From Devosia sp. 66-14 (GTDB lineage Bacteria; Pseudomonadota; Alphaproteobacteria; Rhizobiales; Devosiaceae): a DNA stretch of 64,000 bases. The notes under the pieces were generated by a model, which was not told the origin of the DNA, searched no databases, and worked only from the letters and a program-made list of their open reading frames with translations. The stretch is from positions 232,073 through 296,072 of the forward strand of contig MKVB01000006.1 of the NCBI GenBank assembly GCA_001899085.1. The letters are read 5' to 3'. The position numbers and the translations under genes were made by a program. Below, one piece after another: positions 1 through 52,609 of this stretch (its first letter is position 1; every line of letters begins with the position of its first letter).

Positions 1-1869
1 GTGCAGTATTCCAGCACGCTCGAGACGGTGCTCAACCAGGCGACCTACACGCCCTGCGGAGACTGCATCGACGCCAAGGGCAACCGTATCGGCTGGAAGG
101 TGAAAGCGGCCAAGCTGATCCAGAACTCCGAGACCAAGACCATCTATTTCGAGCAGCCATCGCTCGAGGTGCTGGGCATCCCGGTGGCCTGGCTGCCCTG
201 GTTGTCGCTGCCCGATCCGAGCGCCAAGCAGAGCAACGGCTTCCTGTTGCCCAGCGTCAACTACAAGGCCGAGTATGGCGGCCGTATCACCGCGCCCTAC
301 TTTATCAATGTCGGCGACGACACGCAGATCCTGCTGGCGCCGTCGCTGATGTCGCGCCAAGGCTTCCTGATGGCGGCCGAGTGGCAGCAGCGCTTCGATT
401 ACGGCACGTTCACGGTCAAGGCGTCGGGTATCTACCAGCTCGATCCGGGTGCCTTCTCGGGAATCGGCAACCGTGAATGGCGCGGCGCCATCCAGAGTTC
501 GGGGCGCTTCGAGCCGGTGGCGGACTGGACCGTGGGCTGGTCGTACAGCGCCTTCACCGACGCCGCCTATTTCGACGATTACGACTTCAACACCGACGAC
601 TGGGTGACCAACGAGGTCTACGCCACCCACCTGAGCAGCGACTTTTACGCCGACGTGCGGCTGCAGCAGTTCCTGAAACTGGGTCAGTTCGGCACCCAGG
701 CTGCCGCCGATTCGGCGCAGGCGCAGCAGGCGGTGACGCTGCCGAACGCGCGCGGCGCGGGATATTTCGACCTCGGCGAATGGGGCCAGGTGCGGGCCAA
801 CGGCAACCTGCTCGGCGTACAGCGGGACGAGGACGCCGCGGCGCTTTATGCCGGCATTCCCTACGTCTTCGGCTACGAGGGCGCCAAGACGCACGCCTCG
901 GGCGAGCTGAGCTGGCAGAACCAGATCATCGCGCCGGGCGGCGTGGTGGTGACGCCTTATCTCGGCCTGCGGGCGGACATCACCAACTACGACAGCGGCG
1001 ACGCGGTCAGCGCGGGCGAGCCGGCCGACCAGTTCCTGTTCGAAGCGACGCCGATCGCCGCAGTGGACTTCCGCTGGCCCTTATTCGCCACCAGCGGGCT
1101 CGACACGCACCTGCTCGAGCCGATCGCGCAACTGGTCTATCGCGGCAGCGACACCTCGCTGGTGGGGATCACCAACGACAACGCGCACAGCTTCGTACTC
1201 GATGACACCAACCTCTTCTCCTATGACCGCTTCACCGGCAGCGACCGGCAGGAAACCGGTCTGCGCGCCAATATCGGGGCGCGCTACCTCGCCAACTTCT
1301 CGGCCGGCCAATGGCTGGAGATCATCGCCGGCCAGAGCTTCCGCCTCGCTGGAGTGAACGCGTTCGGGACGGTCGATCCGGTCAATACCGGCGTCGGCAG
1401 CGGGCTCGAGGACGATGCGTCTTACATCGTGCTCGGAGCGCGCGGCTCGCCCTATGACGGGCTGACGCTGGGCGCCAAGATGCAGCTCGACCCCAACGGG
1501 CCGCGCGTGGCCCGGGCCGGTCTCGGCGGCACCTACGCCGTCGGGCCCTATTCGATCGGCAGCGACTATGTCTACCTGCCGGCGGATCCGGCGACCGGCG
1601 TGGTGGCGGACCAGCACGAGGTGACGGTACGGGCCAGCACGCCGCTGCCGCTCGACTACTGGCGCGCCAATGGCAGCCTGTCGTGGAACGTCGCCGCCAA
1701 TGAATGGCTCGAGGCGCGCGGCGAGTTGATCTACGACGACGGCTTCTTCCTCGCCGGTGGCTTCGCGCAAGCCAACGCGGCGACGCATGAGACCCCCAAT
1801 TCGGTTACGTTCGGCGTGCAGTTCAAACTGAAGGCGCCGGGGGCCGAATTCGGGATCATCAACTATTGA
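1..1869 (+). CDS. lptD: LPS-assembly protein LptD, C-terminal part (5' end outside the window)
   Basis: This is the outer-membrane component of the Lpt machine, which with LptE inserts lipopolysaccharide into the outer leaflet. The frame is open from the first base and ends at TGA 1867-1869, so the 622 visible residues lack the signal peptide and most of the periplasmic beta-jellyroll. The first codon (GTG) is internal, not a start. The visible part begins at the jellyroll/barrel junction (CGDC near residue 18, then the WLPWLSLPDPS stretch). It continues as alternating aromatic and polar beta strands typical of the LptD barrel and ends in an aromatic residue (INY), as outer-membrane barrels often do. 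The surA-like gene follows 129 bp downstream, the common lptD-surA-pdxA-rsmA order of alphaproteobacteria. Confidence 0.93.
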   Translation: MQYSSTLETVLNQATYTPCGDCIDAKGNRIGWKVKAAKLIQNSETKTIYFEQPSLEVLGIPVAWLPWLSLPDPSAKQSNGFLLPSVNYKAEYGGRITAPYFINVGDDTQILLAPSLMSRQGFLMAAEWQQRFDYGTFTVKASGIYQLDPGAFSGIGNREWRGAIQSSGRFEPVADWTVGWSYSAFTDAAYFDDYDFNTDDWVTNEVYATHLSSDFYADVRLQQFLKLGQFGTQAAADSAQAQQAVTLPNARGAGYFDLGEWGQVRANGNLLGVQRDEDAAALYAGIPYVFGYEGAKTHASGELSWQNQIIAPGGVVVTPYLGLRADITNYDSGDAVSAGEPADQFLFEATPIAAVDFRWPLFATSGLDTHLLEPIAQLVYRGSDTSLVGITNDNAHSFVLDDTNLFSYDRFTGSDRQETGLRANIGARYLANFSAGQWLEIIAGQSFRLAGVNAFGTVDPVNTGVGSGLEDDASYIVLGARGSPYDGLTLGAKMQLDPNGPRVARAGLGGTYAVGPYSIGSDYVYLPADPATGVVADQHEVTVRASTPLPLDYWRANGSLSWNVAANEWLEARGELIYDDGFFLAGGFAQANAATHETPNSVTFGVQFKLKAPGAEFGIINY

Positions 1870-1998
1870 GTTCGATCGACGCAATCGATCGGGTATGCAA
1901 CTTCTCCTGATCCCGGCCCAACCGATTTTGGCCGTATTCTTCCAACATTGAGTTGGCCGAGCCGGGGGCGATCCGGTGGCCTTCCCAAAGAACTGAAA

Positions 1999-2886
1999 AT
2001 GGTGACGACAATGCTCCGCCTCATCGCTGCAATGCTGATCGGCTTAACCCTGAGCGTCATGCCGGCTTTTGCCGCGACCAAGGTGACGGTCAACGGCGTG
2101 CCGATTTCGGATATCGAGATCGCCCAGCGCACCAAACTGCTGGCGCTCGAAGGCGGCGGCGGCACCAAGAAGGCGATGGAGCAGTTGATCGACGAGCAGC
2201 TGCAGATCCAGGAAGCCAAGCGGATGAACATCGTCATCTCCGACCAGCAGGTCGATGACGCGTTCCAGCAGGTCGCCCGCAACATCAAGGTGTCGACCGA
2301 CAAGCTGCGCCAGATCCTGCAGCAGGCCGGCGTCAACATGGACACCATGCGGGCCCGCCTGCGCGCCGCCATCGCCTGGCAGCAGGTCAGCGGCATGGTG
2401 GTCGCCTCGCGCGTCAAGGTGTCGGACCTCGACCTCGAGAAGGCTGCCGAAGCCAAGCTCGACCAGGCCTCGAGCTATGACTACATCCTCAAGGAAATCC
2501 TGTTCATCAGCACGGCAGGCAATGCCTCGGCCCGCACCGGCCAGGCCAACAAGTACCGCGCAGCGTTCAAGGGCTGCGACAGCGCCGTGCAGGTGTCGCT
2601 GAACTTTACCGACGCCGCGGTGCGCGACATGGGCCGCCGCCACGCCACGCAGTTGCCGGACGCCCTGGCCAGCGAGCTGGCCAAGCTGAACGTCGGCGGC
2701 ATCACCAAGCCGCGCGTCACCGAAGCCGGCGTGTCGATGCTGGCGGTCTGCGCCAAGAACGAGGCGCGCGACACCACGTTCCTCAAGAACAAGCTGCGCA
2801 ACGAGCAGGGCAGCGAGGCGATGAAGACCGAGGCCGAGAAGTTCAAGGCCGAGCTGCGCCAGAAGGCCAAGATCATCTACAGCTAA
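1999..2886 (+). CDS. SurA-like periplasmic chaperone / peptidylprolyl isomerase
   Basis: Predicted periplasmic chaperone for outer-membrane protein folding, about 295 aa. ATG 1999 (or 2011) gives a clean Sec signal peptide, a hydrophobic run ending in MPAFA, before the mature ATKVTVNGVPIS. The next 130 residues match the SurA N-terminal domain, including the TKLLALEGGG and AMEQLIDEQLQIQEAKR helices. The C-terminal half lies where a parvulin domain would be, but I see no clear rotamase signature, so isomerase activity is uncertain. An in-frame TTG at 1948 would add 17 residues ahead of the signal peptide and is less likely. It sits between lptD and pdxA, its usual place. Confidence 0.85.
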   Translation: MVTTMLRLIAAMLIGLTLSVMPAFAATKVTVNGVPISDIEIAQRTKLLALEGGGGTKKAMEQLIDEQLQIQEAKRMNIVISDQQVDDAFQQVARNIKVSTDKLRQILQQAGVNMDTMRARLRAAIAWQQVSGMVVASRVKVSDLDLEKAAEAKLDQASSYDYILKEILFISTAGNASARTGQANKYRAAFKGCDSAVQVSLNFTDAAVRDMGRRHATQLPDALASELAKLNVGGITKPRVTEAGVSMLAVCAKNEARDTTFLKNKLRNEQGSEAMKTEAEKFKAELRQKAKIIYS

Positions 2887-3046
2887 CGGAGTGTTGCCGG
2901 CCCGGCGGGAAAACGCCGGGCTTCGCGACAGTTTGGCTTAGCAAGTCCATGTCAGGAGCCGTTCGGCGCCAGGTCGAACGGCTCTAGGTCAGTCGGCAGC
3001 GACGGACCGGGGCGGCGCCGCTGCGACGCGAACATACGAGGACATC

Positions 3047-4075
3047 TTGGCCGACACCCACCAGCCGCTTGCCGTCAGCATGGGCGAACCCGCGGGCATC
3101 GGACCCGACCTGGTCCTGCGCCTCTACGCCAGGCGCGCCGAACTCGGGCTGCCCCCCTTCATCGTCTATGGCCACATCGATTTCCTGCGCGCCCGCGCCG
3201 CGCGCCTGCGGCTGCCGATCGCGCTGACCGAGAGCACCCCACTCGACGCAGGCGCGCATTTCGACGAGGCGTTGCCGATCGTGCATGTCGACGGGCTGGT
3301 GCCCGACAAGCCGGGCGAGCCTACGCCGCTGTCGGGCAAGGTGGTGATCGAGTCGATCTCCCGCGCGGTGGAGGCGAGCCTCACCGGGGAATGCCGCGCC
3401 ATCGTTACGGCGCCGATCCACAAGGCGGCGCTCTACTCGGCAGGTTTCAAGTATCCGGGCCATACCGAGTTCCTCGCAGCGCTCTGCGCGCAAGGCGAGT
3501 CAGTTCCCACGCCGGTGATGATGCTGGCGCACGAGGCCTTGCGGGTCATCCCGGCGACGATCCATGTGCCGATCCGTGCGGTGCCGGCGCTCGTGACGTT
3601 CGAACTGGTGGTCACCACCGGACGGATCGTCGCGCACAGCCTGCGCACCCGCTTCGGCATTGCCGAGCCGCGGATCGGCTTTGCCGGGCTCAACCCGCAC
3701 GCCAGCGAGGGCGGCAATATCGGCACCGAGGACTATGACACCGTCGGCCCGGCCATCGCGCATCTGCAGCACGAGGGGATCCTGGCCGAAGGCCCGATGC
3801 CTGCCGACACGCTGTTCCACCTGCCGCACTGGCGGAAGTACGACGCCGTGGTCGCGATGTATCACGACCAGGCGCTGATCCCGATCAAGACCGTGGCGTT
3901 CGACCAGGCGGTGAACGTGACGCTCGGCCTGCCGATCGTCCGCACCTCGCCTGACCATGGCACCGCCTTTGACCTGGCAGGAACCGGCAAGGGCTCTGAC
4001 GCGAGCTTCCTCAATGCGATCCGGCTGGCCGATGAGCTGACCGGCGGCGTGGCGCAACGGGCGGCGGCGCAGTAG
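3047..4075 (+). CDS. pdxA: 4-hydroxythreonine-4-phosphate dehydrogenase PdxA
   Basis: Oxidises 4-phosphohydroxy-L-threonine in the DXP-dependent pyridoxal phosphate pathway; cytosolic, metal- and NAD-dependent. The 342-aa product has the family opening SMGEPAGIGPD (residues 11-21), TAPIHK (121-126), the metal-site HTEF at about 139 and the late MYHDQALIPIK segment with a second metal ligand. Its length is normal for PdxA. The start is TTG 3047, preceded by GAGGA at 3038-3042; no ATG gives the whole conserved N-terminus. It lies 160 bp after the surA-like gene and upstream of rsmA, with the convergent DUF305 gene between them. Confidence 0.95.
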   Translation: MADTHQPLAVSMGEPAGIGPDLVLRLYARRAELGLPPFIVYGHIDFLRARAARLRLPIALTESTPLDAGAHFDEALPIVHVDGLVPDKPGEPTPLSGKVVIESISRAVEASLTGECRAIVTAPIHKAALYSAGFKYPGHTEFLAALCAQGESVPTPVMMLAHEALRVIPATIHVPIRAVPALVTFELVVTTGRIVAHSLRTRFGIAEPRIGFAGLNPHASEGGNIGTEDYDTVGPAIAHLQHEGILAEGPMPADTLFHLPHWRKYDAVVAMYHDQALIPIKTVAFDQAVNVTLGLPIVRTSPDHGTAFDLAGTGKGSDASFLNAIRLADELTGGVAQRAAAQ

Positions 4076-46181: not shown

Positions 46182-47588
46182 TCACCCGACCACCCCGGCG
46201 CTGATGACCCGGTTGCTCAGCCGCGCCCGACCGCGAGCAGCAGTGACCGACAGCCTGACGGCTGTCGTCTCCACCGGCGAGAAATGGAGGATGCGGCGAT
46301 AGCCCACCGAGGCGCATTCCGCCAGCGCAAGCCACCGACCATCGGCGGCCTGGGCTTCCACCGTCAGCTGTTCGACCTGCTGGCCCAGCGCAATGTCTTC
46401 CTCGACGATCACGGCACCGACCCGCCTCGTTTCCGGCCACGACAGAACGAGGCTGCCGCCATTGGCGTCGATGATCCAGGCGCCTTCCTGGTCCAGCGCA
46501 CCGGCAGGCGACAGATCGGCGGTTGCGGCGATATCGGCGCCATAAAGCTCGGCGATGCGCTTTCCCAGCTGTGACAAGACAAGCCGATCCGGCGCGGACA
46601 CCAAGCCGGCGCGGTCGGGCGGCACGTTGAGCAGGAACGTCGCGTTGCCCCCCACTGACGCACAGTAGATGTCGAACAGTTCGTCGGCGGAGCGGACCTC
46701 GGCATCTTCCTTGGCGTGGTGGAACCAGCCCGGCCGGATCGAAGTGTTCACCTCTGCGGGATACCAGACGAGCCGATCGCTCGAGGCGGTGATGGTTGCC
46801 CGGCTCCCCAGGTCCTGTTCGTCCGAGCGCACCATGCGGGAGAACTTGCCGTCGTCGACCTGCTGCGAATTGGAGGCGGTCCGTTCGGCGTCGAGCAGCG
46901 CAGCGGGAACGACGCTCCACTCATCGGGCCGGGTATGGCCGGCCTCGTTGCCGCACCAGCGCACGTCGGGGCCGCAGACGCTGATCACGGCGTCGGGCTG
47001 CAACTCTCGCACCACGGCAAAGTAGCGGTCCCAATCGTAATATTGCTTCCTGCCGGCCGCGCCTTCGCCATTGGCGCCGTCGAACCAGACCGAAAAGATC
47101 GGGCCATAACCCGAGAGCAGTTCCCGCAATTGCGCGACGAAAAAGTCGTCGTAGCCAACCCCGGTGCCGTAGGCGGGCTCCGTGCGGTCCCATGGGGAGA
47201 GATAGACGCCGAACTTCATGCCGCGACGCGCGCAGGCCGCCGAGACCTCGGCGACAAGGTCACCACGACCGCCTCGCCATGGGCTGGACGCCACCGAGTG
47301 CCGGGTCACCGCGCTCGGCCACAGGCAGAACCCGTCATGGTGCTTGCAGGTGAGGATCAGGCCGCGCATGCCGGCAGAGGCGAGGCTCTCCACCCACTGG
47401 TCCGCATCGAGGTGCGCCGGATCGAACAGAGCCGGGTCCTCGTGCCCGAGGCCCCATTCCCGATCGGTCATGGTGTTCATGCCGAAATGGATGAAGCCGT
47501 AGAACTCGAGCTGCTGCCAGGCCAGCTGCCGCGGCGATGGCCGGACGGCAGAAGCCTCGGCGATACGGCTGACCGAGCTCACTCCCAC
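46182..47588 (-). CDS. GH29 alpha-L-fucosidase
   Basis: A 468-aa glycoside hydrolase of family 29 that removes alpha-L-fucose. The N-domain has [49 protein letters not shown] and the nucleophile region [13 protein letters not shown]; a beta-sandwich domain forms the C-terminal third. There is no signal peptide, so it is probably cytosolic and acts on imported fucosides. GTG 47588 overlaps guaA by 10 bp; GTG 47582 (4-bp GTGA overlap) is equally plausible. An accessory sugar gene behind guaA is unusual. Confidence 0.9.
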
Positions 47589-49147
47589 TCGATGGTGCCG
47601 GGCGGCTTCGACGTCACGTCGTAGACCACCCGGTTGATGCCGCGCACCTCGTTGATGATGCGGGTGGCGGCGCGGCCGAGGAAGTTCATGTCGTAGGGGA
47701 AGAAATCCGCGGTCATGCCATCGACCGAGGTCACAGCGCGCAGCGCGCAGACGAACTCGTAGGTGCGGCCATCGCCCATGACGCCCACGGTCTGCACCGG
47801 CAGCAGCACGGCGAAGGCCTGCCAGATCTTGTCGTAGAGCCCGGCCTTCCTGATCTCGTCGAGATAGATGGCATCGGCACGGCGGAGGATATCGAGCTTC
47901 TCGCGGGTCACGCCGCCCGGCAGGCGGATGGCGAGGCCGGGTCCGGGGAACGGATGGCGACCGACAAAGCGATCCGGCAGGCCGAGTTCGCGGCCGAGCG
48001 CCCGGACCTCGTCCTTGAACAGCTCGCGCAGCGGCTCGACCAGTTGCATGTTCATGCGATCCGGCAGGCCGCCGACATTGTGGTGCGACTTGATGGTGAC
48101 CGAGGGGCCGCCCGAGAAGCTGACGCTTTCGATGACATCGGGGTAGAGCGTGCCTTGGGCGAGGAACTGCGCCCCGCCGAGCTTTTTGGCTTCCTCCTCG
48201 AACACCTCGATGAACAGCCGGCCGATGGTCTTGCGCTTGGTCTCGGGGTCCGCCTCGCCCTCGAGCGCGCCGATGAACTTGTCCGCGGCATCCACGTGGA
48301 CCAGCGGGATGTTGTAGTGATCGCGGAACATCGAGACGACTTCGTCGGCCTCGTTCATCCGCATCAGGCCGTGGTCGACGAACACGCAGGTCAGCTGGTC
48401 GCCGATGGCTTCGTGGATCAGGATCGCGGCGACCGAACTGTCGACGCCGCCGGACAGGGCGCAGATCACCCTGCCCTTGCCGACCTGGGCGCGGATCTTG
48501 TCGATGGCGCGCTGGCGATAGGCCGACATGGTCCAGTCGGACTTGAGCCCGACGATGTTGTGCACGAAGGATTGCAGCAGCTTGCCGCCATCCGGCGTGT
48601 GCACCACCTCGGGGTGGAACATGGTGGTGTAGTAGCGCTTGCGCTCATTGACGGCGATGGCGAAGGGGGCGTTCTCGGAGGTGCCGACAACGGTGAACCC
48701 CTCGGGCAGCTCGGTGACGCGGTCGCCGTGGCTCATCCAGACCGGATAGCGTCCGCCGACCTTCCAGAAGCCGTCGAACAGCGGGCTCTGTTCCCTGATT
48801 TCGACATCGGCCCGGCCGAATTCGCGGGCGTGACCGCCCTCGACCTTGCCGCCCTGCTGCAGCGCCAGGGTTTGCTGGCCGTAACAGATGGCGAGGATCG
48901 GCACGCCCGAGTCGAAGACCTCCTGCGGGGCGCGAGGGCTGCCTTCGTCGGTCACCGAGGCGGGGCCACCCGAGAAGATCACTCCTTGCGGCTTCAGCCG
49001 GGCGAACGCCTCGGCGGCGCTCTGGAACGGGTGAATTTCGCAATAGACGCCGGTCTCGCGCAGGCGGCGCGCGATCAGCTGGGTCACCTGGGACCCAAAA
49101 TCGATGATGAGAATGGACTCGGCGGGGGCGGCGGCGATGTCTGTCAT
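47579..49147 (-). CDS. guaA: GMP synthase (glutamine-hydrolysing)
   Basis: Amidates XMP to GMP. The 522-aa product has a class I glutamine amidotransferase domain with Cys88 in AICYGQQ and the HPEVVH histidine, an ATP pyrophosphatase domain with the P-loop [10 protein letters not shown], and the C-terminal dimerisation domain ending PPGTIEWE. Length is standard. ATG 49147. It is followed by the fucosidase and ybaN-like genes; guaB, its pathway partner, is about 9 kb away on the same strand. Confidence 0.97.
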
Positions 49148-49185: not shown

Positions 49186-49890
49186 TTACGCGGGTTGGTT
49201 GATCGGCGCCTGATCGTTCGAGCGGGTCAGCTTGCCGGCGAGGTTCTTGTTGAGCGCCGATTCGAGGGTGCGCCGCAGCTGCGCGTCATTGCCGATGGCT
49301 GCGGTCAGCTTGGCCTGATCGAACACCAGAGCGCGGGTCCGCTTGACCACCGTGGCGGTCGCACTGGCCGGATTGCCGGAGAGAAAACTCAGCTCGCCGA
49401 TGTAGTCGCCCGGGCCACAGATGGCGACGACACGGTCGGCATGCTCCACTTTGACGATGCCGTCGGCGATGTAGACCAGCTGCGGCACCGCCTCCCCCTC
49501 ATTGGTCAGGGTCTTGCCCGGCTCCAGCCGCTCCAGGTCGGCCAGGTCGAGCAGGCGCTTGATGGCGCTGCGATCGACGGTGTCGGGCATGTTGTCGGCG
49601 AAGTGCTGGTGCTCCTCGTCGAAGCGATGGTGGTACTCGTAGTACCAGATGATCAGCAGCTGGACGACGTTGACGAGTACGAAGATCGTCTCCCACAGCA
49701 CGCTTACCGGATCGAGCACGAAGAACGCCCGATAGACGATCTTGGCGAGGCCCGAAGCCACGGCAAGGATGCGCAGGGTCACCATGCGACGCATCAGCAT
49801 CGAGGCGATCAGCAGGAAATAGGTGAAATGGCCGAACAGGATGACGGGGTCGGAGAGACCCCGCAGCAGTTCGTCAAGCAAGCTCGTCAT
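49186..49890 (-). CDS. Three-helix membrane protein with a cNMP-binding-like domain (Popeye-like layout)
   Basis: A 234-aa protein with three membrane segments (about 14-32, 36-54, 62-83) followed by one cyclic-nucleotide-binding-type domain (about 105-225: [49 protein letters not shown]). This is the domain order of Popeye proteins. The phosphate-binding cassette lacks the usual Arg: it reads PASAT with Ala175, where the neighbouring cNMP protein has PRSAT. It may bind a different ligand or none. ATG 49890. Ends 38 bp from guaA; same strand as the next cNMP gene. Confidence 0.8.
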
Positions 49891-49921
49891 CTACTCGATC
49901 CCAGAACCATGCCGGCGGATT

Positions 49922-50299
49922 TCAATCACCGGGCAGAGCCTCATTCGCCCGGCGCAGCCGCTCAACCAGAACGCGCATGACGCTGAGGCCGAAATACGGG
50001 GCCTCGCTGATCATGAACAGGAACTGCTTCTCGCTCACCGGAGTCACCACGCAATCGGTGTCGGCCAATACGGTGGCGCTGCGCGGGCCGGCGTCGATCA
50101 GGGCCATCTCGCCAAACACTTCGCCCTCGCCCAAAGTGTCGAGGGTGCGATTGCCCAGGCGTACCTGTACTTTGCCTTTGCGGATGACGAAGAACTCGTG
50201 CGCGCTGTCACCAGCGTTGAAGATCACCTGCCCCGCCAAGAAACTCCGTGTCTCGTCGTTCGCCCGATCCAGTAAACCGAAATCCGTGAACATGTTCAT
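49922..50299 (-). CDS. Small stand-alone cyclic nucleotide-binding domain protein
   Basis: A 125-aa protein that is almost only a cNMP-binding domain: GQVIFNAGDSAHEFFVIRKGKVQVRLGNRTLDTLGEGEVFGEMALIDAGPRSATV, with the phosphate-binding Arg73 and Glu64 present. It has no HTH, so it is not a Crp-type regulator; it may be a soluble sensor or partner. ATG 50299 is favoured (GGGGTGG upstream); ATG 50314 would add five residues. It is 31 bp from the membrane cNMP gene and divergent from the STAS gene. Confidence 0.85.
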   Translation of the reverse strand: MNMFTDFGLLDRANDETRSFLAGQVIFNAGDSAHEFFVIRKGKVQVRLGNRTLDTLGEGEVFGEMALIDAGPRSATVLADTDCVVTPVSEKQFLFMISEAPYFGLSVMRVLVERLRRANEALPGD

Positions 50300-50314
50300 G
50301 CCGGCCACCCCCAT

Positions 50315-50483
50315 TGCCAGTCATGCGGTTCGCATGCCGCCCCCATCGATTTCAACGACGGAAACTGGCACTGTCACAGAACTGGTCGTCGAACTGTCAT
50401 CTGACCGTTACATTTCCCTGTCCATAAACAGTATTCGTCCGGCCGGCGGGGCGTTTGCCGGTGCAGAGCAAGGGAGCACTGGT
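50315..50483. promoter_or_regulatory. Divergent promoter region of the signalling cluster
   Basis: Contains repeated ACTG-type words: AACTGG at 50363-50368 and 50380-50385, ACTGTCA at 50370-50376 and 50393-50399, and CTGT-N6-ACAG at 50419-50432. They may be binding sites for an unidentified regulator. AAGGGAG lies before the STAS start. Confidence 0.35.
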
Positions 50484-50822
50484 ATGGAATGGAAGGTCGT
50501 CGACGCCGGTAACGGCATTACCCTCGTCGAACTGAGCGGACGCATGGACGTCGCCGGCGCGCTGCTGGTCGATCCGGCCTTTGCCGAAGTCGCCCGCGAC
50601 AACACAAGCGTCATCGTCGATCTCGCCAAGGTAGATTTCCTCGCCTCGCTCGGCATCCGCACGCTGGTCAGTGCGTGCAAGACGCTGCGCGCCAAGAATG
50701 GCGGCATGGTGCTGCTGACCCCGCAACCCAATGTCGAGCAGGTCCTGCGCTCGAGCGGCATCGATACGATCATCCCGATCGTGATGACGCGCGAAGAGGC
50801 AGAGGCCGGCGTGCTGGCCTGA
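50484..50822 (+). CDS. STAS-domain anti-anti-sigma factor-like protein
   Basis: A 112-aa single STAS domain, as in RsbV/SpoIIAA-type antagonists. Visible: GITLVELSGRMDVAGA, then VIVDLAKVDFLASLGIRTLVSACK with the phosphorylatable Ser55, and a last strand-helix. In the family, the unphosphorylated form binds the kinase/anti-sigma partner. It is followed after 2 bp by a HATPase protein and then by a SpoIIE-type phosphatase, a complete partner-switching set. ATG 50484 follows AAGGGAG. Confidence 0.92.
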   Translation: MEWKVVDAGNGITLVELSGRMDVAGALLVDPAFAEVARDNTSVIVDLAKVDFLASLGIRTLVSACKTLRAKNGGMVLLTPQPNVEQVLRSSGIDTIIPIVMTREEAEAGVLA

Positions 50823-50824
50823 CG

Positions 50825-51280
50825 ATGAGCGCCACGCAGCCGCACCGCGCGCAGTTTCCCGGCACCATCGACGGTGCCGTGACGGCGTCGAGCTGGCTGC
50901 ATGGCGTGGCTGAGCGCGAGGCTCTGCCCGGCAAGCTGGTGTTCGCGCTCGAGGTCTGCCTCGAGGAACTCTTCACCAACGTGGTTCGCCATGGCGGCCG
51001 CGGTCGCGACGCGGCGCCACTCTCGGTCGATGTCGGCCTGTCGGTCGAGGGCAACGACGTCGCGATGTATATCGAAGACAACGGCAAGTCGTTCGACGTG
51101 TCGCAGGCCCCGGCCCGGCCGATCCGCCGCCCGCTCGAAGAAGTCATGCCGGGCGGCCTGGGCATGCAACTGATCCGCAGCTTCAGCAAGGAGCTGCTGT
51201 ACGAGTCACGACCCGACGGCAACCGGGTCATCCTGAAGTTCTTGCGGCAGGAACAAGCGGGGTCTACAGCGGGAGCTTGA
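50825..51280 (+). CDS. RsbW/SpoIIAB-like ATP-binding (HATPase_c) protein
   Basis: A 151-aa GHKL ATPase of the anti-sigma/serine kinase type: EVCLEELFTNVVRHGG (N box with Asn52), AMYIEDNGKSFDVS (G1 box) and GGLGMQLIRSFSKELLYE (G2 box). Such proteins phosphorylate the STAS partner and sequester a target. No sigma factor is encoded nearby, so the sequestered partner here is unknown. ATG 50825 is 2 bp after the STAS stop. Could act without kinase activity. Confidence 0.9.
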   Translation: MSATQPHRAQFPGTIDGAVTASSWLHGVAEREALPGKLVFALEVCLEELFTNVVRHGGRGRDAAPLSVDVGLSVEGNDVAMYIEDNGKSFDVSQAPARPIRRPLEEVMPGGLGMQLIRSFSKELLYESRPDGNRVILKFLRQEQAGSTAGA

Positions 51281-51292
51281 CACGAGACTGTC

Positions 51293-52609
51293 ATGAGCCC
51301 TGCCGACCGCGCGATGAACCGCTACACCCTGACGAGGACCGCCGACGTCGGCATCGGCGCCCTCGATGCTTTGCTGCGCCGGCGGACGCCGGTTCGGTAC
51401 GCGCCCGGCGAGGTGCTGGTCCGCCAGGGCGAGATCAGCGAGTTCGCCTATTTCGTGGCCGAGGGATCGGTCGCGGTCTACGCCGAGTCGGATTACGAGC
51501 GGGTGCAACTCGCCGCGCTCGACGCGCCGCGACTGATCGGCGAGTTGGGCGTGCTCGCCGGTTACCCGCGCACGGCCACGATCGAGGCGACCACGCCGCT
51601 CATGGTCTACCGGCTCACCGGCGAGGAACTGACCGAGGTCGGGCGGCAGGCACCGGAGTTTCTGTTCTCGGTGATCAGCCAGTTGGGCCGACAGCTCGAC
51701 GGCATGAACCGGGCGCTCAGCCTTTACGGCAACGCGCTTTCGGCGCTCGAGCGGCGCGAGTTCGACTCGCGCATTCTCGACGAACTGGCGCACCCCTCAC
51801 CGCAACTGGTGACCTTCGCCAACACCTTCAAGCGTTTTGCCGAGCAGATCGTCGACAAGCGCCGGCAGAGCGATGAACTGGCCAGCGCCGCGATCATCCA
51901 GCGCTCGTTCCTGCCGCGTCCCGAACTGCTGAGGCCGGTGGAAGGGCGGGTCGAGCTCAGCGCTTCCATGCGACCGGCCCGCGACGTGGGGGGCGACTTC
52001 TACGACTATTTCATGCTCGGTCGGCACAAGCTCGCCATCGCTATCGGCGACGTGTGTGGCAAGGGGATCCCCGCGAGCCTCTTCATGTCGGTGGCGATCA
52101 CCACGCTGAGAAGCGCAGCTGCCGAGGAGAAGACCATCGAGGCGACGCTCGCGCGTATCAACACCAGCCTTTGCCGAGACAATGACGCTTCGATGTTCGC
52201 CACCCTGTTCTTCGCCGTACTGGACACCCGGACCGGAGAACTCGAGTACGGCAATTGCGGGCACAACGCGCCCTATGTGCTCTCTGCCGGCGGGCGGCAA
52301 AGCCTGCCGACGACCGGTATTCCGGTGGGGCTGATCGATGGACGATCCGCCAAGGTCGGGCGCCTCAGGCTCTCGCCGGGCGACCTGCTGGTGACCTTTA
52401 CCGACGGCGTTACCGAAGCGATGGACCCGCGGCAGGAGCAGTTCGGCAACCAGCGGTTCGAGGCGCTGCTTGACGCCGCCGCCGGTGCCCGACCGGCGGA
52501 CCTTCTCCCCTCGATCCTCGGTGCAGTGGACGACTTCGCCGCAGGCGAAGAGCAGGCCGACGACATCACCTGCCTGGCGCTGCGGCTGATGCAGGCGCCG
52601 CGCGACTGA
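51293..52609 (+). CDS. SpoIIE-type PP2C phosphatase with an N-terminal cNMP-binding domain
   Basis: A 438-aa signalling phosphatase. Residues about 30-140 form a cNMP-binding domain with intact phosphate-binding cassette (LIGELGVLAGYPRTAT, Arg93), then a coiled-coil linker (about 150-205, QIVDKRRQSDELASAAIIQRSF) and a SpoIIE/PP2C domain (about 215-435) with metal-binding Asp in RDVGGDFYDY and IAIGDVCGKG, FTDGVTEAM and the final ADDIT. It presumably dephosphorylates the STAS protein 470 bp upstream when the nucleotide signal changes. ATG 51293. Confidence 0.92.
   Translation: MSPADRAMNRYTLTRTADVGIGALDALLRRRTPVRYAPGEVLVRQGEISEFAYFVAEGSVAVYAESDYERVQLAALDAPRLIGELGVLAGYPRTATIEATTPLMVYRLTGEELTEVGRQAPEFLFSVISQLGRQLDGMNRALSLYGNALSALERREFDSRILDELAHPSPQLVTFANTFKRFAEQIVDKRRQSDELASAAIIQRSFLPRPELLRPVEGRVELSASMRPARDVGGDFYDYFMLGRHKLAIAIGDVCGKGIPASLFMSVAITTLRSAAAEEKTIEATLARINTSLCRDNDASMFATLFFAVLDTRTGELEYGNCGHNAPYVLSAGGRQSLPTTGIPVGLIDGRSAKVGRLRLSPGDLLVTFTDGVTEAMDPRQEQFGNQRFEALLDAAAGARPADLLPSILGAVDDFAAGEEQADDITCLALRLMQAPRD

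Follow-up and report, generated by a model that had tools for sequence, protein, structure and literature searches.

A candidate cyclic-nucleotide-gated STAS partner switch beside a Popeye-like gene in Devosia sp. 66-14

In this study, a cluster of five genes was investigated in Devosia sp. 66-14 (Devosiaceae), within a stretch of 64,000 nucleotides (contig MKVB01000006.1, positions 232,073 to 296,072; hereafter the window). Gene A encodes a Popeye-like protein, B a stand-alone cyclic-nucleotide-binding domain (CNBD), C a STAS protein, D a HATPase_c_2 kinase and E a SpoIIE-type phosphatase that carries a CNBD of its own; A and B are divergent from C, D and E around 50.3-50.5 kb. Judged by their sequences, C, D and E are a partner switch of the RsbV/RsbW/RsbU type with a cyclic-nucleotide domain on the phosphatase, and on balance we lean towards the view that a cyclic nucleotide, most probably cyclic AMP (cAMP), gates E. 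A and B are regarded as a separate pair of cyclic-nucleotide-type proteins and not as obligate parts of the switch; with it they have the neighbourhood, and perhaps the messenger, in common.

The five genes, their strands and their divergence had been given in a preliminary description of this DNA and were all recovered from the list of open reading frames and from Pfam, with E-values (Table 1) that place the domain assignments far beyond chance. That description had also proposed a phosphorylation switch with a CNBD on its phosphatase, and both the domains and the invariant residues agree with it. Residue conservation was followed in alignments of seven E homologues and of C and D from six loci. 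Ser55 of C, presumably the phospho-acceptor as in the SpoIIAA family, is invariant in 6/6 loci, as are the N-box residues Glu48 and Asn52 of D, which we take to be catalytic from the SpoIIAB family. In E, the acidic residues D235, D253, D371 and D424, where we would expect the metal-binding site from the SpoIIE family, are invariant in all seven homologues, and the cassette of its CNBD (IGELGVLAGYPRTAT) keeps Glu84 and Arg93 in 7/7; B likewise keeps both cassette residues, Glu and Arg (FGEMALIDAGPRSAT). The switch is thus intact at the level of sequence, and the gaps of 2 bp between C and D and 12 bp between D and E make it likely that the three genes form an operon.

A possible source of the messenger is found beside some of the relatives. 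Full-length E was obtained from eight loci, in the window's own genome (G000) and in G010, G012, G021, G061, G213, G280 and G587, and in three of the eight (L016, L151 and L152) a class III cyclase with a CHASE2 domain is encoded beside it. A DUF3307 gene stands between cyclase and switch in L151 and L152. Ahead of the cyclase there is a FecR gene in L152, and in L016 a FecR-like fragment recognised by our own hidden Markov model (HMM), on which Pfam gave no match. CHASE2 cyclase, FecR and DUF3307 were all absent from 100 control SpoIIE loci, of which 80 were the best 80 matches listed in a contig scan with E, mostly unrelated SpoIIE proteins from other phyla, and 20 were SpoIIE-only loci of the same class without a CNBD. 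The cyclase model did match one locus in each control set, at 29 bits inside a SpoIIE protein among the 80 and over the catalytic part only (model positions 422-690) among the 20, neither being counted as a CHASE2 cyclase. Fisher's test for the CHASE2 cyclase linkage gave p = 0.017 against the 20 controls and 2.7e-4 against all 100, figures that are rough, given the relatedness of the loci and their differing lengths (3.9-64 kb for the E loci, 9.5-17 kb for the 20 controls and 3.1-17.2 kb for the 80). The locus counts rest on six-frame scans, since our own gene caller missed genes in loci of low GC content; the scan HMMs were built partly from the loci scanned, so that those matches are partly by construction, and the control loci were not used in building them.

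The same genes are also grouped away from the switch. On contig C3 of the window's own genome, FecR, the CHASE2 cyclase, DUF3307 and a CNBD protein stand together, and three of these four genes recur beside the switch both in G280 (no FecR) and in G213 (no stand-alone CNBD). The CNBD protein of C3 is 43% identical over 156 residues to that beside the G280 switch, and each of the two is 32% identical to B over about 100 residues. In G012, FecR, cyclase and DUF3307 run up to a contig end, and G061 holds FecR and a CHASE2 cyclase on a contig other than that of the switch. We take the K of TIDKFIGD and the S of FDYSALGD in the cyclase as marks of the adenylate type. A second CHASE2 protein, with no cyclase motif found in it, is encoded on contig C4 of G000.

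Several observations weigh against a cAMP-gated switch tied to this cyclase. When any class III cyclase is counted, the Fisher values become p = 0.058 against the 20 controls and 0.001 against the 100; one same-class control has a class III cyclase without a CHASE2 match. Among the 80 controls there are four CNBD-SpoIIE loci without a CHASE2 cyclase, where the comparison of 3/8 with 0/4 (p = 0.49) involves too few loci to tell. Cyclase and switch lie on different contigs in G000, G012 and G061, and in G010, at 94% completeness, the switch is present and CHASE2 gave no match, which tells against an obligate link. The phosphatase is not always accompanied by its partners either, since E stands alone in G587, with no STAS or HATPase match in 18 kb, and lies in G021 on a 3.9-kb contig without STAS or HATPase. 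Finally, 17 CNBD stretches were counted in G000, so cAMP may serve many receptors.

With respect to the distribution of E, the full-length protein was present in 5/101 relatives, with SpoIIE-domain matches only in 7 further genomes, and in 4/397 genomes of the order; in the class and phylum scans, where 31 and 8 genomes matched, the CNBD was covered in G000 and G587 among 385 class genomes and in G000 and G061 among 398 phylum genomes, the other matches starting at model position 91 or later. These samples overlap and their cut-offs differ. Two arrangements outside these counts were noticed: in Oscillochloris, outside the phylum, HATPase_c_2, CNBD-SpoIIE and STAS follow one another in a row (L039, 7493-9632), and in Herpetosiphon a single-protein version may exist, as CNBD, SpoIIE and HATPase all match within one open frame (L103, 7383-9227).

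The preliminary description had treated all five genes as one unit. When their co-occurrence was checked in a genus sample of 19 genomes, A was present in 14/19, a B homologue in 7/19 and E in 3/19 (G000, G010 and G012); the genes are therefore largely not kept together, and a single functional unit of five was rejected on this distribution. All B homologues among the 101 relatives fall within the genus, those of G003 and G013 and the second of G017 being only 50-55% identical. Among the 11 genus genomes with A and without E, A lies beside guaA in seven (G001, G002, G003, G004, G011, G014 and G015), sits in the same gene block in G013, where the contig ends inside A, and is found elsewhere in G005, G008 and G017. 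G001 has guaA, A and B without C-D-E, while G017 has the B-A pair at another place, also without C-D-E. Of the 46 Popeye match rows of the order scan from genomes other than G000, 18 were fetched as loci. Those in which guaA was found belong to other families: in L153, L154 and L155 (two families) guaA directly follows the A homologue on its strand, and in L156, which represents a third family, the two are about 1.3 kb apart; guaA was not found in the other 14/18. In L155 (4238-5811, minus strand) guaA matches in two frames, hence a frameshift or an assembly error. Conversely, C-D-E occurs without adjacent A or B in G061, G213 and G280. Because A and the B-A pair occur without the switch, and C-D-E without A and B, we describe the cluster as layered, composed of A, which is older and frequently linked to guaA, of a B-A pair and of the module C-D-E.

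The same counts are what one would meet in a composite neighbourhood, where A and B are functionally untied to C-D-E, the switch was inserted or retained next to a guaA-Popeye locus of greater age, and the operon C-D-E alone is a unit. We give this explanation serious weight, at somewhat below an even chance: against it, B and A adjoin E in all three genus genomes that possess E, though B homologues are so restricted in the genus, and Popeye homologues adjoin CHASE2 or class III cyclase genes in 4/29 loci without an adjacent switch (18 + 11 scanned).

For the cAMP-gated switch that we prefer, the following order of events is proposed. An envelope signal would prompt a CHASE2-class III cyclase to make cAMP, the gene for this enzyme adjoining the switch in some relatives and lying on a separate contig in the window's genome; cAMP would bind the CNBD of E and shift its PP2C activity toward the phosphorylated STAS protein, activation being assumed; dephosphorylated C would then capture the kinase D; and the usual client of D, presumably encoded away from the locus, would be set free. 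Gene content, key residues, the recurrent linkage of E to the CHASE2 cyclase and DUF3307 and the independence of A and B are observed, and from them we infer the binding of cAMP, the direction of regulation and the client.

As for that client, the absence of a neighbouring sigma factor had been pointed out in the preliminary description and has stood, for no sigma-factor domain was found in the 12 flanking proteins scanned, sigma factors not having been searched genome-wide, and visual inspection of the genes called near L151 and L152 showed none. An unlinked sigma factor could still be the output, D being then an ordinary anti-sigma factor of which only the genomic position is unusual. The nearest models and solved structures of D are indeed RsbW and SpoIIAB, and C matches the anti-sigma antagonist superfamily TIGR00377 at 66.6 bits, above its cut-off of 53.45. 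Set against the missing neighbours, and against the non-sigma outputs known for this plan from the SiaABCD passages of PMC9239204 and PMC7647112, such an output is possible, and we entertain it tentatively.

A further explanation concerns the ligand. Many members of the Crp-Fnr group have a CNBD with another ligand or a structural role, and the CNBD of E may be no cAMP sensor in the same way, so that the switch would answer something else. The identity of a ligand is not readable from sequence, the CNBD of PycTIR binding cUMP according to the relevant part of PMC11224242, and the case of G010 fits this explanation. Nevertheless, the retention of the cassette Glu and Arg in every E protein aligned and the linkage to a CHASE2 cyclase speak for cAMP, and we consider a non-cAMP role of this domain unlikely.

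Protein A was examined as a relative of the Popeye family. It matches cNMP_binding (E = 1.7e-14) and, at E = 3.3e-5 and 24.5 bits, POPDC1-3 (PF04831), which is under the 28.1-bit cut-off. Of its homologues, 20/23 have a PF04831 match with an E-value of at most 0.01, the lowest being 7.9e-9, and the Popeye homologue in L280 reaches 28.2 bits. The eukaryotic motifs DSPE and FQV[ST], given as Popeye motifs in the portion of PMC6562197 that deals with them, were found in 0/23 A homologues. The PF04831 matches of 20/23 homologues are what links them to vertebrate POPDC1-3. By its sequence A is Popeye-like and distantly related, and by these motifs it does not qualify as a Popeye protein. The cassette Arg position is Ala in 23/23 homologues, with the Glu kept in 22/23, and because of this Ala ordinary cAMP binding by A is unlikely. 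An earlier suggestion that three cyclic-nucleotide domains feed one switch appears weak for the same reason, and also because only the CNBD of E is physically joined to the switch. A single-sequence AlphaFold model of A had a mean predicted local distance difference test (pLDDT) score of 51.7, below 50 in the CNBD and about 80 only in the N-terminal helices, and was not used for a fold search. Being present in 44/397 genomes at E 1e-25, the Popeye-like family of bacteria is no rarity in this order; no description of bacterial Popeye proteins was found among the open-access papers listed. Two loci of the family were noted separately: in L014 (1831-5458, in G010) there are three Popeye-like copies, two of which flank an acyltransferase gene, and in L157 (2601-5417) a protein whose start looks TIR-like by eye is encoded one gene from the Popeye-like gene.

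The four Popeye loci with cyclase neighbours differ in completeness. L168 shows the order cyclase-FecR-DUF3307-Popeye with the cyclase gene nearly whole, and L164 the same order with the cyclase gene cut after its CHASE2 part by the contig end. In L280, where TPR is present too, FecR and a CHASE2 gene truncated at the contig end lie close to the Popeye gene, and in L279 the Popeye gene adjoins the catalytic part of a cyclase whose other side is cut by the contig end. Matches of the CNBD-SpoIIE model in 10 of the 11 Popeye loci were cross-matches of Popeye or CNBD domains, not phosphatases. Because Popeye homologues adjoin such cyclase genes, A may be part of the same cAMP network and not of this switch in particular. 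A glutaminase-STAS-CNBD fusion was also seen in L280 (G005; 1297-3129, minus strand), between the Popeye-like gene and the TPR-FecR-CHASE2 row.

A fuller pathway can be drawn from these loci, in which an envelope signal (FecR) would act through a CHASE2 adenylate cyclase and cAMP on the CNBD-gated SpoIIE phosphatase and so on a STAS/HATPase switch whose client would be non-transcriptional, perhaps the cyclase or else the DUF3307 and Popeye-like membrane proteins that recur beside it; as a whole it is speculative and we hold it with considerable doubt. That A and a cyclase would be a Pycsar-like anti-phage system, with a membrane CNBD effector and a nucleotide cyclase, is highly improbable, for while A has the layout of transmembrane segments plus CNBD and the PADLOC Pycsar models match CNBDs and the C3 cyclase, those matches are confined to the CNBD or to the catalytic domain of the cyclase, no TIR is seen in A and its cassette Arg is lost, FecR and CHASE2 point to envelope sensing, and A stays next to guaA, a housekeeping gene.

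If the cAMP-gated switch is correct, cAMP would set protein phosphorylation directly through a STAS partner switch, beyond CRP-type transcription factors, and since the loci provide candidates for the sensor, the cyclase, the receptor and the switch, the chain could be reconstituted in vitro. Should the fuller pathway hold, Popeye-like proteins would be membrane partners in a cAMP network, which bears on the original role of the Popeye domain. The human POPDC family is linked to muscle and heart disease in the literature as far as consulted, and a Popeye-like family beside guaA or CHASE2/class III cyclase genes offers a handle on a relative of it. Neither a description of a CNBD-gated STAS switch nor a paper joining CHASE2-cAMP signalling with a STAS switch was found among the open-access papers listed.

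Table 1. Positions of the five genes, the intergenic region and guaA within the window.
Feature	Positions	Strand	Description	Pfam match (E-value)
A, Popeye-like protein	49186-49890	-	N-terminal hydrophobic helices and C-terminal CNBD-fold domain with degenerate phosphate-binding cassette	
B, stand-alone CNBD with canonical cassette FGEMALIDAGPRSAT	49922-50314	-	upstream of A	cNMP_binding (1.8e-21)
Divergent intergenic region between B and C	50315-50483		scanned for CRP-type sites	
C, STAS protein (RsbV/SpoIIAA type)	50484-50822	+		STAS (6.3e-17)
D, HATPase_c_2 Ser/Thr kinase (RsbW/SpoIIAB type)	50825-51280	+		HATPase_c_2, PF13581 (5.6e-20)
E, CNBD - linker - SpoIIE-type PP2C phosphatase	51293-52609	+		cNMP_binding (2.0e-15); SpoIIE, PF07228 (2.0e-50)
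guaA (GMP synthase)	47579-49147	-	recurrent neighbour of A, outside the switch	

The gap between A and B is 31 bp and that between guaA and A 38 bp, A being upstream on the same strand. By Pfam, the 12 flanking proteins are alpha-fucosidase, guaA, DUF454, polysaccharide deacetylase, TPR_21, acyltransferase, DUF1349, TspO, rsmB, MAPEG, guaB (IMPDH) and one without a family. None of the 12 gave a GGDEF match, that is, there is no adjacent diguanylate cyclase as in SiaABCD. The GC content of the genome is about 65%. No CRP-type box with up to two mismatches was found in six intergenic regions, three of them B-C regions, and Clr-like boxes matched only at two mismatches, in 2/6. About 14 kb left of the window (G000:C6:217504-218166, minus strand), STAS and CNBD stretches apparently belong to the same open frame of 621 aa, probably a SulP-type transporter.

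The combination of genes had earlier been thought to match no described system, and this is correct in part: the plan of C-D-E is that of RsbU/RsbV/RsbW and SpoIIE/SpoIIAA/SpoIIAB, with a STAS protein bearing the Ser, an N-box HATPase_c_2 kinase and a PP2C/SpoIIE phosphatase in one row, whereas here the sensor of the phosphatase is a CNBD, no sigma factor is among the scanned neighbours and a CHASE2 cyclase is present in some relatives. With SiaABCD of Pseudomonas aeruginosa the locus has in common the phosphatase-kinase-STAS set and a connection to a second messenger, and the proposed PP2C/stas_STYK/c-di-GMP pathways of Campylobacterota likewise combine that set with a non-sigma output, as set out in the corresponding passages of PMC9239204 and PMC7647112. 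In those passages the output of the switch is formed by a diguanylate cyclase or c-di-GMP enzyme, whereas the class III cyclase here is more plausibly the input. A Campylobacterota cluster of FecR, CHASE2 adenylate cyclase, phosphodiesterase and TPR, for which section 9 of PMC9239204 names no STAS switch, shares the FecR and CHASE2 neighbours, and L280 has TPR as well. A CHASE2-class III cyclase, a FecR protein and a cAMP receptor encoded close by are also met in Sinorhizobium meliloti, in CyaD1/CyaD2/CyaK with Clr and the FecR-domain protein SMc02177, in the parts of PMC5498481 and PMC13001267 that concern them; there the receptor is the CRP-type transcription factor Clr, whereas in the present locus it would be the phosphatase of a STAS switch.

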